DNA from: Mucilaginibacter rubeus
Lineage (GTDB): Bacteria > Bacteroidota > Bacteroidia > Sphingobacteriales > Sphingobacteriaceae
DNA: 64,000 bases
Assembly (NCBI RefSeq): GCF_014643835.1
Contig: NZ_BMKD01000014.1
Coordinates: forward strand, 1 to 64,000
Direction of reading: 5' to 3'
How positions within the stretch are numbered: the first letter of the stretch is position 1; every line of letters starts with the position of its first letter. Below are positions 10,166-26,312 of the stretch, piece by piece. The position numbers were made by a program, and so were the translations under genes. Under the pieces are notes generated by a model, which made no database searches, was not told the origin of the DNA, and saw nothing but the letters and a program-made list of their open reading frames with translations.

Positions 10166-10204
10166 AAAGAGCCGGGAGCGTAAATGCTTCCGGCTCTTTT
10201 TCTG
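10166..10204 (+). terminator. Rho-independent terminator of the receptor gene
   Basis: A strong stem AAAGAGCCGGGAGC / GCTTCCGGCTCTTT with a short loop is followed by a T-run, about 45 bases after the receptor stop codon. Confidence 0.85.
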
Positions 10205-10316
10205 AACCAGGATTGTCTGAACTCGAATTTGTTGAATTCATTGAATTGACAGAATTTTAAAATTCGATAAATTCTTAAAATTCGTTTAATTCGAGTTCAG
10301 ACAAAATCCCGGTTCT
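10204..10316. repeat. Palindromic repeat family D with GAATT-rich centre
   Basis: The outer arms GAACCAGGATTGTCTGAACT and AGTTCAGACAAAATCCCGGTTC pair, and the AT-rich interior is built from repeated GAATT/AATTC blocks. It reaches the stop codon of the MutS-like gene. A second copy is at 22487-22608. Confidence 0.75.
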
Positions 10317-12123
10317 ATTCTGCGTCCACCTCAATCCCTATCTGTTTAAGCAATAGCGAGGCGTTAAAAGTTTTGCATTCACCGTGCTTGATCTTGTAAT
10401 CAAACAGCATTTCGCCGTTCACTACCTGGATATCAAAATAAAAATTACGTACGTAATCAGGATATTTGGTTTCGAGATGGGCTATCTGTAAATCGTGAGT
10501 GGCTACCATACCCACCGCATTTTTGTGGATGAGCTGCTCGATAACCGCTTTTGAGCCGAGGTATTTATCAACCGAATTGGTACCGCGCAGCATTTCATCA
10601 ATCAGGAAAAACACTTTAGGCTCATTTTCAACCGCGGCCAGCAGCATCTGCAGGCGGTCAAGCTCGGCCTTAAAGGTTGAGGTGCTTTCATTGAGCGAAT
10701 CTTTGATGCGCATATAACTGATCATGGTGATCACCGATACCTGCATACTTTGGGCGCAAACAGGGGCACCGCTTAAGGCCAGCACGGTATTAATGCCCAC
10801 GGTACGCAAAAAGGTGCTCTTACCGGCCATGTTTGATCCGGTGATGATATCAACCTTAAAGGTGTTATCCAGTTCGTAATCATTTTCTATACGTTTGGTG
10901 GCGTCAATAAGCGGGTGGGCAATGGCTTTAGCTGTAAGGGTATAGCCCGGCCTGTCGTCAATAACAGGAAAACTCCAATCCGGATAGTTTACGGCCAAAC
11001 CGGCCAGGCTTAACAGCGATTCAAATTCAGCAATGACATCAAAAGCGGCTTCAAGGCTGTCCTGGTTTTGACGTTTCCAGTTTTCAATGGCGATGATCTG
11101 GCGGATATCCCATAAGAAAAACAGGTTGAGCACAAAGCCGATTAACAGGTTAAGATGATAATTAAGCTTATTGATCAACTCCCCCAGTTCTTTTATTTTG
11201 GCCGATGTCTTGTCTGTTTTTAGCTGTTGCGCCAGGGTGTTGCTATAACCGGCCTGCCATTGCTGGTCTTCAATGCACTTAAATACATTTGCATAGTTGG
11301 ATAAAGTATCACCTATTTTACCGGCAATAAGATCGGCTTTGCTGATGTAGGCTGCTTTTGAAAACACCACCCCCATATTAAACAAGCCAACCACGATGGC
11401 CGCAAGCTTCACCGGCGAATAAAAATAAGCGACAACCAACAACGCCGTAAACAAGTAAGGCGCTATTTTGGTATAAGCGGCAAGCCATTTTTCGCCTGGC
11501 ATATCGAGCGGAATGTGCAGGTATTTGAAAAGGTTTTTAAGCTGGTTCACGTCCTGCTTTATGGCGAAAATGAGCCGTGTTTGCAGATCGAGCTTCCAGC
11601 TGTGCTTAGCGGCTATTTCTTTAACGGCTTCCTGCCGCTGTAATACGGTTTGCTTGCTTGCCGGGGCATTGAGCCAACCTGCCAGTTTATTATTTCCCGG
11701 GGTAGTAGCTGCACGGTTGATGAGCTGGTATAACGATGCATTACCGTAAATATCCAGGTCGGAAGTGTAGAAGTGTTTGTCGTTAGCGTAGCGCGCGCCA
11801 TCGTTGTAGATAGTTCCGTGGGTTTGGATACTAACTATCTCGTTTTCATTTACCTGCTGCAGATCGTCATAATACTGTTTCTGCTTTTCAAACGCACTTT
11901 GTCGCGCTACCAGCCAGGCAAAGGCAAAAACCAGCAATACAAAGGCTATGGCGATAATACTAAAATTATCGAAGTGAATGGCAAAGGCTATAGTTACAGC
12001 CACCATGGCAAAAATGCCGAGCCTCAGCAGTGAATAGGTATTGGCAAGCTTTTTATATTTGGCCGCTTCTGCAGCGGCGAGGCTTGCTCTTTGAGTATAA
12101 TCGTTTATAATTGTTTGTTCCAT
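10315..12123 (-). CDS. MutS-related ATPase with N-terminal membrane segments
   Basis: A 602-residue protein whose C-terminal third is a MutS-type ABC ATPase: Walker A GSNMAGKSTFLRT (about residues 427-440), Walker B FLIDEMLRGTNS, and the switch ATHDLQIAH. The mismatch-recognition and connector domains of MutS are missing. Instead the N-terminus has two hydrophobic segments (about 33-75), and another hydrophobic pair lies near residues 220-255, so it is probably inner-membrane bound. Such proteins are labelled DNA mismatch repair protein MutS in Bacteroidota, but sequence gives no reason to assume mismatch repair. Divergent from rlmH. Confidence 0.82.
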   Translation of the reverse strand: MEQTIINDYTQRASLAAAEAAKYKKLANTYSLLRLGIFAMVAVTIAFAIHFDNFSIIAIAFVLLVFAFAWLVARQSAFEKQKQYYDDLQQVNENEIVSIQTHGTIYNDGARYANDKHFYTSDLDIYGNASLYQLINRAATTPGNNKLAGWLNAPASKQTVLQRQEAVKEIAAKHSWKLDLQTRLIFAIKQDVNQLKNLFKYLHIPLDMPGEKWLAAYTKIAPYLFTALLVVAYFYSPVKLAAIVVGLFNMGVVFSKAAYISKADLIAGKIGDTLSNYANVFKCIEDQQWQAGYSNTLAQQLKTDKTSAKIKELGELINKLNYHLNLLIGFVLNLFFLWDIRQIIAIENWKRQNQDSLEAAFDVIAEFESLLSLAGLAVNYPDWSFPVIDDRPGYTLTAKAIAHPLIDATKRIENDYELDNTFKVDIITGSNMAGKSTFLRTVGINTVLALSGAPVCAQSMQVSVITMISYMRIKDSLNESTSTFKAELDRLQMLLAAVENEPKVFFLIDEMLRGTNSVDKYLGSKAVIEQLIHKNAVGMVATHDLQIAHLETKYPDYVRNFYFDIQVVNGEMLFDYKIKHGECKTFNASLLLKQIGIEVDAE

Positions 12124-12186
12124 TTGCAGATAAATTCAACCAAAATAAACACATATATTTTAAATAAACGTTTATTTGTTGCAGAT

Positions 12187-12660
12187 ATGAAGATCACGTT
12201 CCTTACCGTTGGAAAAACAGAGGATGCCTATTTAAAGGAAGGCATTGATAAATATGTAAAACGGCTAAAACACTATACCAAACTGGAGCTTGCCGAAATC
12301 CCCGAGTTGAAGAACACCAAAGCGCTGAGCCCCGAGCAGCAAAAGGCCAAAGAAGCCGAGTTGATCCTCAAGAAAATCACCCCGCTTGATTTTGTGATCC
12401 TGATGGATGAGAAAGGTTCTGAATTTACCTCAACCCAGTTTGCAGCTTATATCAATAAAAAAGAAGTTACCACATCTGCCAATTTAATATTCATCATAGG
12501 CGGGCCTTATGGCTTTGATACCTCCGTTTACCAGCGGGCTAACGACAAGATCTCTCTTTCGCGCATGACATTTTCGCACCAGATGGTACGCCTGTTTTTT
12601 GTGGAGCAACTGTACAGGGCATATACCATTATGAAGGGAGAGCCTTATCATCATGAATAA
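12187..12660 (+). CDS. rlmH: 23S rRNA (pseudouridine1915-N3)-methyltransferase
   Basis: A SPOUT methyltransferase of 157 residues that modifies pseudouridine 1915 in helix 69 of 23S rRNA. The start MKITFLTVGKTEDAYL at 12187 matches the family; an upstream ATG at 12091 would add 32 residues antisense to the neighbouring gene. The knot region shows IFIIGGPYGFDTSVYQRA and the C-terminal LSRMTFSHQMVRLFFVEQLYRA, both diagnostic. Monocistronic. Confidence 0.95.
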   Translation: MKITFLTVGKTEDAYLKEGIDKYVKRLKHYTKLELAEIPELKNTKALSPEQQKAKEAELILKKITPLDFVILMDEKGSEFTSTQFAAYINKKEVTTSANLIFIIGGPYGFDTSVYQRANDKISLSRMTFSHQMVRLFFVEQLYRAYTIMKGEPYHHE

Positions 12661-21372: not shown

Positions 21373-22251
21373 TTACGCTAACTTAGCCAGTTCTTCAGCC
21401 ATGGCAGCGCCAATTTCGGCTGGTGATTCAACCACACGGATCCCGCACTCGGCCATGATCTTCATTTTAGCAGCAGCAGTATCGTCAGCACCGCCAACAA
21501 TAGCACCTGCGTGGCCCATACGGCGGCCCGGAGGCGCTGTTTGGCCAGCAATGAAACCAACAACCGGTTTAGTACCGTTCGCTTTGATCCAGCGGGCAGC
21601 ATCGGCTTCCATATTTCCGCCAATTTCACCAATCATGATTATACCATGAGTTTCAGGATCGTTCATTAATAATTCAACAGCTTCTTTGGTTGGTGTACCA
21701 ATAATTGGGTCGCCACCGATACCGATAGCTGTAGTGATACCCAAACCGGCTTTAACCACCTGGTCAACCGCTTCATAAGTTAAAGTACCTGATTTTGAAA
21801 CCACGCCAACGTTACCTTTTTTGAAGATAAAGCCAGGCATGATACCAATTTTGCTTTCATCGGCAGTGATGATACCAGGGCAGTTAGGACCAATCAGGCG
21901 TGCATCCTTATCTGTAAGATATTCTTTTACTGCGATCATATCCTTTGTAGGGATCCCTTCGGTAATACAAACAATAACCTTAATGCCGGCTTCAGCAGCT
22001 TCCATAATAGCATCTGCACCAAAAGCAGGAGGCACAAAAATGATGGATACATCGGCACCGGTTGCAACAACGGCATCTTTAACCGTGTTAAAAACCGGCC
22101 TGTCTAAATGGGTTTGACCACCTTTACCTGGTGTAACACCACCAACTAACTGAGTACCATAAGCAATCATTTGCTCGGCATGGTATGACCCTTCTTTACC
22201 GGTGAAACCTTGTACAATAACTTTTGAATCTTTATTTACGAGTACACTCAT
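21373..22251 (-). CDS. sucD: Succinate--CoA ligase (ADP-forming) subunit alpha
   Basis: 292 residues. It catalyses, with SucC, the reversible conversion of succinyl-CoA to succinate with nucleotide phosphorylation in the TCA cycle. Diagnostic parts: [20 protein letters not shown] with the CoA-binding Rossmann fold, [20 protein letters not shown], and the phospho-histidine loop [13 protein letters not shown]. sucC is not adjacent, which is common in Bacteroidota. Full length. Confidence 0.96.
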
Positions 22252-22462
22252 TGGTTTTTTCGTTTTAGTACGGCAAAGCTAAAGTTTTTGCCCGAATGTC
22301 AAACCCTATTGTAATCTAAATTTATATGTTAACATAAAAGTGACTTTTAAGGGGATTGGATGTGGTTATAGGGTGTTTATGTGTTTTAAATTTTTTATGA
22401 TTATAAAGTTCCCGTTGAATAAAACTCCTAACTGAAAACTATCTACTGCCAACTAAATTAGG

Positions 22463-22483: not shown

Positions 22484-22486
22484 ATT

Positions 22487-22608
22487 TGTCTGAACTCGAA
22501 TTAAACGAATTTTAGCAATTTATTGAATTTGCTTTTCATTCTGGTAGATTCGGGTTCAGACAAAAAAACCGTAAATCAAAAAAATCCTATAAATCCCGGT
22601 TCAGACAA
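22487..22608. repeat. Palindromic repeat family D, second copy
   Basis: TGTCTGAACTCGAATT at the left pairs with the right arm around GATTCGGGTTCAGACA, with an extra copy of GGTTCAGACAAAATCC at the end. The region 22260-22650 holds this element, the partial family C element and AT-rich sequence; no gene is seen in it. Confidence 0.7.
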
Positions 22609-22650
22609 AATCCGAAATCATTACACTGCCATCCATAACGTGGCCAATTA

Positions 22651-22858
22651 CTAATTGAATGCAATTGCAAATTCAACCGCTGTAATTAAAACGAACACCA
22701 AAAACGTAGCAAGAAATATAATCCCGGCTTTTTTAAGTTTCACTTTATCGCCAGAAATACCCGGGATAAAATTGATCGCAGTAAATGTCAAACCAGTTAA
22801 CAATACCAGTGCTTTGAAAATTGTTAATAATATATATATATATATCCGATTTATTCAT
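22651..22858 (-). pseudogene. Small two-helix membrane protein gene, out of frame at an (AT)8 tract
   Basis: An ATG at 22858 lies within the end of the symporter gene (8-bp overlap). It starts M-N-K-S-D and then enters an (AT)8 tract, after which its frame is wrong. The correct frame after the tract is fully open to a TAG at 22651-22653 and encodes a convincing small membrane protein: ILLTIFKALVLLTGLTFTAI, a GISGDKVKLKKAG charged hinge, and GIIFLATFLVFVLITAVEF. With (AT)9 or (AT)6 the ATG would join this frame, giving about 69 or 67 residues. Either a phase-variable gene in its off state, a recent loss, or a sequencing error in the tract. No in-frame ATG or GTG precedes the first helix. No family is recognised. 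Confidence 0.65.
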
Positions 22859-24098
22859 TAACTCCCCTTTCAGCCGGCTGTTCAACAAACTCCCCCTCAC
22901 TCTTCGCAATCACAATAGTAGCAACACCGTTCCCTATCACATTGGTAATGGCCCGTGCTTCCGACATAAACCTGTCAACCCCTATTAATATCGCCAAACC
23001 TTCTACCGGTATTATTTTGATGGCTGTAAGCGTACTGGTCAATACAATAAAACCGCTGCCGGTTACGCCCGCCGCACCTTTGGAGGTGATCATCAGGATC
23101 CCGATTATGGTTAGCTCCTGCCCCAACGAAAGCGGGATATTAAACACCTGCGCCAAAAATATCACGCACATGGAAAGATAAATGGTAGTGCCATCCAAAT
23201 TAAAAGAATACCCCGTGGGGATCACCAAACCCACCACCGATTTGGAACAGCCAAACTTTTCCATCTTCTCCATCATAGCAGGTAAAGCCGATTCGGACGA
23301 GGATGTACCAAGCACTATCAGGATCTCCTGCCTGATGTATTTCAGATATTCCCAAAGGCTGAATTTAAACAACCTGCAAATGATATTCAATACCACAAAT
23401 ATGAACAGGAACATGGTCAGATAAACCGAGCCCATCAACAAAGCCAGCGGTTTAAGGGTTTGAATACCATATTTGCTCACCGTAAAAGCCATACCCGCAA
23501 AAGCCCCTATCGGCGCCACCTTCATCACTATTTTCATGATATTAAAAAACACTTTCGAAAGCTTATCAAATAGCTGAATAACCGCTTCGCCACTTTTACC
23601 CATCCGGCTTAACCCAAAACCAAACAGTATCGCAAAAAACAGGATCTGCAAAATATCGCCTTCAACAAAAGCTTTGAAGATGTTTGAAGGTACTATGTGG
23701 GCCAGGAAGTCGCCCCAGTGCATTTCGGCGGCGGCTTTTTCGTATACGGCTAATTTGCCGGTATCCATTTTTGCAGCATGGTTTTCAAAACCGGCACCGG
23801 GTTTAATAATATTGGCTACGGTAACGCCGATGACAAGCGCGAACGTGGTTACGATCTCGAAATACAACAAAGCTTTACCGCCTACCCTGCCCACTTTTTT
23901 CATATCGTTCATGCCGGCAATGCCCAGCACAATGGTTAAAAAGATGATAGGCGCAATCAGCATGGTGATGAGACTGATGAACTTCTTGCTAATCAGTTCG
24001 GCAGTTGGGGCAAAGCCTTTAACGTATAAGCCGGCCACTACCCCAAGGGCAATGGCAATAAGTACCTGGAAAGTTAGGTTTGATAAGAGGCGTTTCAT
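22851..24098 (-). CDS. Dicarboxylate/amino acid:cation symporter (DAACS family)
   Basis: 415 residues, polytopic. Hallmarks are the Ser-rich re-entrant loop in LGTSSSESALPAMMEKM, and PTGYSFNLDGTTIYLSM, which carries the NxDG motif that binds substrate and sodium. The C-terminal half has the AITNVIGNGVATIVIAK segment of the family. It probably takes up glutamate, aspartate or C4-dicarboxylates; which one cannot be told. Its last codons overlap the start of the small membrane-protein gene that follows it. Confidence 0.92.
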   Translation of the reverse strand: MKRLLSNLTFQVLIAIALGVVAGLYVKGFAPTAELISKKFISLITMLIAPIIFLTIVLGIAGMNDMKKVGRVGGKALLYFEIVTTFALVIGVTVANIIKPGAGFENHAAKMDTGKLAVYEKAAAEMHWGDFLAHIVPSNIFKAFVEGDILQILFFAILFGFGLSRMGKSGEAVIQLFDKLSKVFFNIMKIVMKVAPIGAFAGMAFTVSKYGIQTLKPLALLMGSVYLTMFLFIFVVLNIICRLFKFSLWEYLKYIRQEILIVLGTSSSESALPAMMEKMEKFGCSKSVVGLVIPTGYSFNLDGTTIYLSMCVIFLAQVFNIPLSLGQELTIIGILMITSKGAAGVTGSGFIVLTSTLTAIKIIPVEGLAILIGVDRFMSEARAITNVIGNGVATIVIAKSEGEFVEQPAERGVNE

Positions 24099-24231: not shown

Positions 24232-25008
24232 TTATGCAGGCGTTGATTTACCGGTTAGTAAATCAATTAAGAAAATTTTATTAAGGAAAGTCAGCTTTGC
24301 CTTGTGGTTGCCCAGGAAAACGATAGTGCCGCTGTAATCCCAGCCCCCGCCGTTTGTTTTTCCTTCCGAACGGAAAGTAGCTGTGCCGCTGGTGATATCA
24401 AACTTATCGTTGCCATGTACATACAGGTTAGTAAACACGTAGGTATTATGCACCCTGCTAAACGTTTTGTATTTGGTGTATTCGTTGTCAACATAGGCTT
24501 TCATAGGGCCATCAAGCGAGAAGTTTGAGTTATTGGTGTTAAGGCCCCTAACCTTATATTTCTGCACAATATTGTAAACGAATGAATAACCCGGGCCACT
24601 GCCTACCGTGTTTAATGAATCAACCGAATCGTAACCAACAGTTTTGTTGCCGTCACAAATAAAATAATATTTGGTACCGCCTGTTTTGGTTGCTTTTAAA
24701 GTATCACCTTGATTAAATACACGGTTCAGGCTGGTATCAATATAAAAACCGCAACTATATGTACTCTGTACTTTAAGCTTTGATGAGGCATTGGTTGAGG
24801 GGGTAACACCGTCGTTAAGGCTGGCCCCTCCAAATGAACCGGCCAATGATTTTGCCAGGTTATCTGCAATTGCCGAACTGGCTACATTATCGCTGGCTTT
24901 TACAGTTGATGGATCGGATTTTACATTAATTCCTGTTTTTGTACAGGCCGAATAAAGAATAGCCACACCTGTTAATAAAGGTAATACACTGCGTAGATTT
25001 AGTTTCAT
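24232..25008 (-). CDS. Lipoprotein of unknown function, paralogue of the next gene
   Basis: 258 residues with a lipobox (LYSAC, Cys at about 22). The C-terminal part (TATFRSEGKTNGGGWDYSG, then IVFLGNHKAKLTFLNK, IDLLTGK) closely resembles the end of the protein at 25345, and an N-terminal IADNLAKSLAGSFGG helix matches IAQSLVGIFNPENGG there. The mature protein is beta-rich with one CGFYIDTS segment. It has no known domain. Tandem paralogous lipoproteins suggest duplication of a surface or periplasmic protein. Confidence 0.72.
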   Translation of the reverse strand: MKLNLRSVLPLLTGVAILYSACTKTGINVKSDPSTVKASDNVASSAIADNLAKSLAGSFGGASLNDGVTPSTNASSKLKVQSTYSCGFYIDTSLNRVFNQGDTLKATKTGGTKYYFICDGNKTVGYDSVDSLNTVGSGPGYSFVYNIVQKYKVRGLNTNNSNFSLDGPMKAYVDNEYTKYKTFSRVHNTYVFTNLYVHGNDKFDITSGTATFRSEGKTNGGGWDYSGTIVFLGNHKAKLTFLNKIFLIDLLTGKSTPA

Positions 25009-25344: not shown

Positions 25345-26145
25345 TTAATTAACTTCGCCTGTCATCAGATCGGCAGTATAAACAGTGCCGTCGATAGTGA
25401 TCTTTGCTTTGTGACCACCCAAAAACGTTATCGTCCCTTTATAGTTCCAGACATTTTTTCCGATACTTCCTTTACTCGAAAAGGCAGCACTTCCGCTTAA
25501 AATAAAATCGGGGTCTTTTGTTGGATCAACAACAATTGATTTAAAATTGTAGTTAAACGTGCCTTCAACATTTGGCTGGTCTGTTGTAGGTTTGGTGTAG
25601 TTAACCCTGGCATAATAATTCACAGGGCCATCAAAAGAGTATTGCGCGTGTTCAACACCCGGATTAAGGCTTCTGAGTATCAGGTTTTCACCCATTTTTA
25701 AAACCATTGTAAAACCGCTGCCTGCCATAGTCATATTTAAACTATCATTAGCGGTAACCCCTGAAGGTACTCCATTGGTACAGGTAAGCTCATATTTAAC
25801 CTTAGCCCAGATATCTATTTTTGAGGTATCGCTTTGATCTAAATTAAATGCTATCGTAGTATCCATTTTGGCGCCGCACTGTGGCTGAGGGTCAACAGAT
25901 TGTACTTTGATCTTACCTTTTTTGTTCAGGGATAGATCGGTTGGCATACTTAAACCGCTCTTAAAATCAAACCCGCCGTTTTCGGGGTTAAAAATGCCAA
26001 CAAGGCTTTGCGCAATTTGCACACTCGCTTCTTTTTTACTTACTGTACTTTGATTGTTAGGCGCCATGTTAAGCTTATGGCACGAAGTGTAAATGGCAGT
26101 AATACCGGCAAGCAGCAATACTATAATTTTGTACTTGTGTTTCAT
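25345..26145 (-). CDS. Lipoprotein of unknown function, paralogue of the previous gene
   Basis: 266 residues from the ATG at 26145, chosen because it gives a normal leader MKHKYKIIVLLLAGI with a lipobox ending TSC; an upstream in-frame start at 26169 would add eight residues. It shares the NVWNYKGTITFLGGHKAKIT ending and the N-terminal helix with the protein at 24232. The central part carries CGAKMDTTIAFNLDQSD, the counterpart of the CGFYIDTS segment there. Function unknown. Confidence 0.72.
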   Translation of the reverse strand: MKHKYKIIVLLLAGITAIYTSCHKLNMAPNNQSTVSKKEASVQIAQSLVGIFNPENGGFDFKSGLSMPTDLSLNKKGKIKVQSVDPQPQCGAKMDTTIAFNLDQSDTSKIDIWAKVKYELTCTNGVPSGVTANDSLNMTMAGSGFTMVLKMGENLILRSLNPGVEHAQYSFDGPVNYYARVNYTKPTTDQPNVEGTFNYNFKSIVVDPTKDPDFILSGSAAFSSKGSIGKNVWNYKGTITFLGGHKAKITIDGTVYTADLMTGEVN

Positions 26146-26312
26146 GTTTAGGATTTTAATTCCGCGCAAAGTTAACTTATTATCAATTAATTAAAGAAAT
26201 TTTGAAAATATTTAGGAGCAGAATGCTATAATATTGTTCATACCCATTTTGAACGATGAGTAAGGGCAAAAGGTTAGCCAATGTGTCGCCCACGGTTAGG
26301 AGACTCGGTTGG

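Follow-up and report, generated by a model that had tools for sequence, protein, structure and literature searches.

Directly behind the dctA gene of Mucilaginibacter rubeus, a short reading frame starts from an ATG, runs into eight AT repeats at its fifth codon and loses its frame there. This locus raises the question of whether the tract is a phase-variable switch of a small membrane protein accompanying a dicarboxylate symporter, as proposed in an initial annotation, or the trace of a gene on its way out of the genome. We addressed this question within a stretch of 64 kb, in the following referred to as the window, and in related genomes.

The small frame at the end of dctA

The neighbour of the small gene (22851..24098, minus strand) encodes a C4-dicarboxylate symporter of 415 amino acids. 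It is a clear member of the SDF / DctA symporters as it scores above the curated cut-offs of both Pfam (PF00375, E 4.9e-116) and NCBIfam (PRK01663 DctA, 591.6 bits at a cut-off of 513). The small gene itself (22651..22858, minus strand) starts with an ATG at 22858-22856 and ends with a stop codon at 22653-22651, while the TAA stop of dctA, on the same strand, is located at 22853-22851. The two genes share eight bases, ATGAATAA (22851..22858, minus strand), which are read directly and bear out the former statement that the ATG overlaps the stop region of the symporter gene. This overlap makes a translational coupling possible by which translation of the small gene would depend on that of dctA.

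The (AT)8 tract covers 22830..22845 (minus strand) with its first repeat in codon 5, and codons 5 to 8 (Asp-Ile-Tyr-Ile) are written as AT repeat. With eight repeats present, translation from the ATG yields a product of 37 amino acids (22745..22858, minus strand). Behind the tract, 59 codons plus the stop are open (22651..22830, minus strand), and the frame contains no lesion besides the tract. The outcome of other tract lengths was computed by translating the stretch with five to eleven AT units. Six units lead to a protein of 67 and nine units to one of 69 amino acids, both including both hydrophobic segments, while seven units end in a stub of ten amino acids. Coordinates and translation agree with the earlier description of a two-helix frame of 59 residues that is missed by one dinucleotide, and the arithmetic according to which (AT)9 or (AT)6 opens the frame and (AT)8 does not turned out to be correct. 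In the (AT)6 protein the two hydrophobic segments reach best 19-residue means of 2.12 (from residue 6) and 2.59 (from residue 45), and the loop connecting the helices is positively charged (K37, K39, K41 and K42). A hairpin with such a loop could be inserted in the membrane next to DctA.

Tract length in Mucilaginibacter gossypii and across the genus

The nearest genome compared, M. gossypii Gh-67 (G001, NZ_FNCG01000013.1), has 32% of sampled 31-mers in common with the window and contains a 100% protein match to the downstream frame. It is syntenic with the window and about 95% identical to it, 16 of 20 listed blocks ranging from 92.8 to 96.0%. Its tract consists of six units and its small gene is open for 67 codons (L001:1477-1680). 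Tract length, and with it the frame, differs between these two genomes, which represent different strains or species (eight units in the window vs six in M. gossypii). A DNA query gave matches in one of 149 Mucilaginibacter genomes, namely that of M. gossypii. The N-terminus encoded by its (AT)6 allele, MNKSDIYILLTIFKAL, aligns without any gap to its counterparts in relatives devoid of such a repeat, MNKNTIYIILTLLKAL and MNKNTFYIILTLLKAL, which indicates that six units represent the in-frame length and that the window carries two in excess.

The window carries an OFF allele, most likely a product of slippage. In this reading, the small gene that overlaps dctA codes for a membrane protein with two helices and some 67 residues. 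Slipped-strand mispairing would have altered its repeat, with six units (ON) in M. gossypii Gh-67 and eight (OFF) in the window strain, where ribosomes setting out from the ATG would run out of frame and terminate after 37 residues. One unit more or two units fewer would reopen the frame and, because nothing else in it is damaged, the locus could in principle toggle. To this reading as a whole, comprising a real small gene, its disruption by an eight-unit AT tract made by slippage and the possibility in principle of toggling, we assign a probability of roughly 80%. From the two alleles we infer that slippage is the probable cause, that the change may be reversible and that it could affect dicarboxylate uptake.

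Over 22651..22830, the window differs from M. gossypii in one of 179 aligned bases. The exchange is synonymous and the protein is identical over 59 residues. We rejected this identity as proof of constraint since it extends, little reduced, into the intergenic DNA behind the frame (98.7% vs 99.4% in the small-gene stretch after the tract) and is thus a local feature. As a separate observation, identity to M. gossypii amounts to 93.3% in dctA and to about 99% in the small gene and the DNA following it, a possible sign that this stretch is of mosaic descent.

The pattern (AT)6 gives three overlapping matches in the window, all of them within the one tract, while 0.01 are expected from dinucleotide shuffles; the tract is therefore not a chance run. 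It is the sole dinucleotide run of at least six units in the 64 kb and thus the longest there, and its counterpart is likewise the only such run in the 80 kb examined of M. gossypii. The whole genome of the latter (7.1 Mb) has (AT)6 at three places. One of the other two lies outside any open frame of at least 60 codons, while the second precedes the ATG of a frame for a ROK-like kinase, so named by eye, by a few bases. Runs of (AT)8 or longer were found at 14 places in 149 Mucilaginibacter genomes, one each in 14 genomes. The frames around them were listed if they had at least 70 codons with 50 from an ATG. At ten of the 14 places no listed open frame extends across the tract, while L087, L094 and L097 have (AT)8 within short frames (148, 54 and 73 amino acids from the ATG). 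At L093 (G393), (AT)8 stands directly between two ATG codons, the latter of which opens a frame of 144 amino acids, which makes this locus a possible second case of a start-proximal AT tract.

The small-protein family and its linkage with dctA

By means of a six-row profile, relatives of the small protein were found in 25 of 149 Mucilaginibacter genomes (24 with a 20-row profile). A family-wide draw placed them in 25 of 399 genomes and in eight of 25 genera; none of the nine matches outside the genus, most of which are weak, has a dctA match in the flanks examined. In all of seven pairs, which were chosen out of 120 and have members in common, pN (0.10-0.32) is smaller than pS (0.49-0.83). Judging from these substitution patterns, the small frame is a real protein-coding gene under purifying selection which evolves much faster than DctA. 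A chance frame was rejected in view of the open orthologue and of the family, in which pN falls below pS. Small-protein divergence shows no correlation with DctA divergence (Spearman 0.13, p 0.15, 120 pairs of linked copies; here L015 was represented by 50 amino acids counted from a late ATG and L033 by a shortened frame).

Unlike the SDF / DctA symporters, the small protein is not named by any Pfam or NCBIfam family at curated cut-offs. At E 0.1 the window frame has no Pfam match, and its scores with two NCBIfam models are well under the respective cut-offs. For the (AT)6 protein no family was matched at E 0.01, and weak, scattered matches were obtained with one or two members out of 20. A PDB profile match (SG122_C3, E 6.7e-4 over 24 positions) was taken as chance. 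The AT repeat is not kept across the homologues. In 32 of 33 distinct homologous frames AT runs do not exceed four units, that of M. gossypii being the only longer one. Four AT units are present in L027 at the matching Asp-Ile-Tyr-Ile codons, which gives a hint of how such a repeat can start.

The small gene follows dctA on the same strand in 16 of the 25 Mucilaginibacter genomes that have it, at distances from overlap to about 140 bases, and nine of the 25 copies have no dctA within the flanks examined. Inspection of 30 dctA loci by hydropathy and reading revealed 25 without a frame of the family behind dctA, and the genomes of these 25 also lack a match to either family profile. Among them are the loci with the closest DctA after that of M. 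gossypii (G072, G474, G442 and G018), as well as three (L065, L067 and L068) in which a different membrane-protein frame is found behind dctA. A tree of DctA was drawn from 42 rows, of which 17 have the small gene and 25 do not (the latter being the 25 loci just mentioned, out of 140 genomes with dctA). On this tree, presence of the small gene needs ten changes, at least seven of which are forced by well-supported branches. Shuffled labels need 13.5 changes on average and are as low as ten in 15 of 500 cases, so that presence is only mildly clustered on the tree.

Small membrane proteins such as AcrZ, KdpF and MgtS bind and tune transporters. The Mucilaginibacter protein resembles them in being short and hydrophobic and in adjoining a transporter gene in 16 of 25 genus genomes. 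Unlike them, it has two helices, and nine of its 25 copies are without dctA in the flanks examined. Its position suggests a possible role together with the DctA transporter.

Frame breaks also occur elsewhere in the family. In the dctA-linked homologue L050 (G480), the first codons harbour T7 vs T5 in its sibling L030, which throws the ATG out of frame; an in-frame TTG is present directly after the dctA stop, just upstream of the T run, and the genome is a draft of 170 contigs. L050 may thus represent a second start region of variable length. L017/L046, an unlinked copy found in the metagenome bin of a lichen, has a stop after codon 12, its T run being one shorter than that of its relatives, without a long repeat. 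L033 ends early, and two stops fall inside the match in L052 as well as in L042, which belongs to another genus. These breaks, several of them from draft assemblies, fit either frequent loss or switching.

Recent loss would mean that a dispensable accessory gene was knocked out by slippage in the lineage of the window, without any selected switching, the repeat being merely the weakest point of the gene. The repeated changes of presence on the DctA tree, the short AT runs in nearly all homologous frames and the stop of L017/L046 at a shortened T run point in this direction, and we consider such a loss a serious candidate whose probability falls somewhat short of even odds. However, no second lesion has gathered in the frame, and it is the longest dinucleotide repeat of the window that is found at codon 5, where a switch would be.

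Switching, bypass or error

Repeat-based phase variation is best known from surface structures of host-associated bacteria. A contingency switch at the present locus would imply that the tract is maintained to vary a transporter-associated small protein among cells. It would agree with the ON and OFF lengths in close relatives, with an intact frame downstream of a start-proximal tract, with the rarity of (AT)8 in the genus and with the T runs of different length in L050 and L030. Yet the long AT tract is not conserved beyond two genomes, the small protein, in contrast to the products of the best-known switches, is not a surface structure, and G480 is a draft of many contigs whose in-frame TTG lies just upstream of the T run. 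Moreover, six to eight dinucleotides may slip too slowly. According to passages of PMC6321876, the cut-off for dinucleotides in candidate phase-variable genes of Campylobacter is at least six units, and the tracts thereby listed may mutate at rates below 1e-5. Passages of a study on Neisseria (PMC5953494) give at least eight units in the methods and six in a table note. They describe aligned Neisseria dinucleotide tracts without length change, which were left out of a figure for want of evidence, and add that dinucleotide tracts do cause phase variation in Gram-negative organisms other than these. With eight units inside an open frame and a unit length that is not a multiple of three, the tract of the window reaches both published cut-offs, 6 and 8, as given in these passages (PMC6321876, PMC5953494). 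Overall, we regard a maintained contingency switch as possible but doubtful.

Part of the phase-switch reading put forward in the initial annotation stands: the gene is real and its nearest relative has the opening length of six. It is weakened by a repeat that exceeds four units in one of 33 homologous frames and by a gene that comes and goes in the genus. A conserved frame with varying AT counts among orthologues had been named as support; six vs eight units in two genomes agree with it, while the 32 remaining frames with at most four units do not.

The locus is similar to known dinucleotide SSR phase variation in that a non-triplet repeat is situated at the frame start and its length differs between close relatives, one being ON and one OFF. 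It differs in comprising two genomes only and in concerning a small membrane protein beside a transporter in an environmental member of the Bacteroidota. As far as our literature searches go, repeat-driven frame switching is known, while the gene, the host group and the setting are new: no publication was found that joins Mucilaginibacter and phase variation, and none whose title or opening of the abstract deals with a small membrane protein together with DctA and dicarboxylate. If switching is real, repeat-based phase variation would be extended to transporter tuning in an environmental member of the Bacteroidota. Even without switching, the locus adds a family of small membrane proteins next to dctA which has no Pfam or NCBIfam entry, and it illustrates how a repeat can hide a small gene from annotation. 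PhasomeIt, as described in passages of PMC6321876, applies a minimum of 300 residues to unannotated frames. In a farther-reaching scenario, which we deem rather unlikely, a maintained dinucleotide switch in an environmental member of the Bacteroidota would turn a small DctA partner on and off among cells and thereby diversify the uptake of organic acids; the patchy distribution of the gene would then reflect this on/off variation on a longer time scale.

It is improbable that the 59-residue frame is made anyway, whether because the transcript or the ribosome slips on the AT repeat or because a non-canonical start codon (such as ATA/ATT, or TTG at 22803) is used. Protein identity to M. gossypii over this frame would be in line with such a bypass, as would the dctA-linked copies L002 and L015, whose first usable ATG is located just at that point. 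However, the good frame of the window contains no ATG, GTG or TTG before the TTG at 22803 in the middle of helix 1, and a start at this codon would keep 50 of 67 residues and lose much of the first helix. The identity, in turn, carries little weight given that of the neighbouring intergenic DNA.

The alignment to M. gossypii comprises 44117 bases in listed frames and 10106 outside, with 79 indels listed. Six of these lie inside aligned genes: three of 3 bases, one cancelling -1/+1 pair and the +4 in the AT tract. The gene list has 43 entries, consisting of the small gene and 42 of the 47 frames of at least 150 amino acids; the five frames left out overlap or oppose others, and in one of them (12091-12660) a single-base difference falls on the final base. 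Blocks of at least 90% identity and 400 columns were used for this list, and 37 of the 43 genes align over more than half of their length (the other six are not covered to this extent). Among these 37, no net frame-breaking indel occurs apart from the 4 bp difference of the tract. This argues against sequencing error in general, and poor assembly as a general cause was rejected for the same reason. That a local sequence or assembly error conceals a true tract of six or nine units is very improbable, for although repeats are error-prone on some platforms, 36 other aligned genes are free of net frame-breaking indels.

A few features of the surrounding DNA may be added. Copies of a dispersed intergenic repeat are located at 22485-22609 and 10197-10305, with arms TTTGTCTGAACC in both orientations. 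These arms give six matches in the window at no more than one mismatch vs 0.34 expected, and sequence similar to the repeat follows dctA in the relatives inspected. Upstream of dctA, two neighbouring lipoprotein-like genes (24232-25008 and 25345-26169) look paralogous by eye, with similar C-termini around FLG-HKAK. Upstream of sucD, the minus strand contains TTTG-N18-TAGCTTTG at 22274-22303, which we take to fit the promoter pattern of Bacteroidota. The bins around this element, as those of 100 bases each throughout 22200-22399, show 95-100% identity in relatives where aligned.
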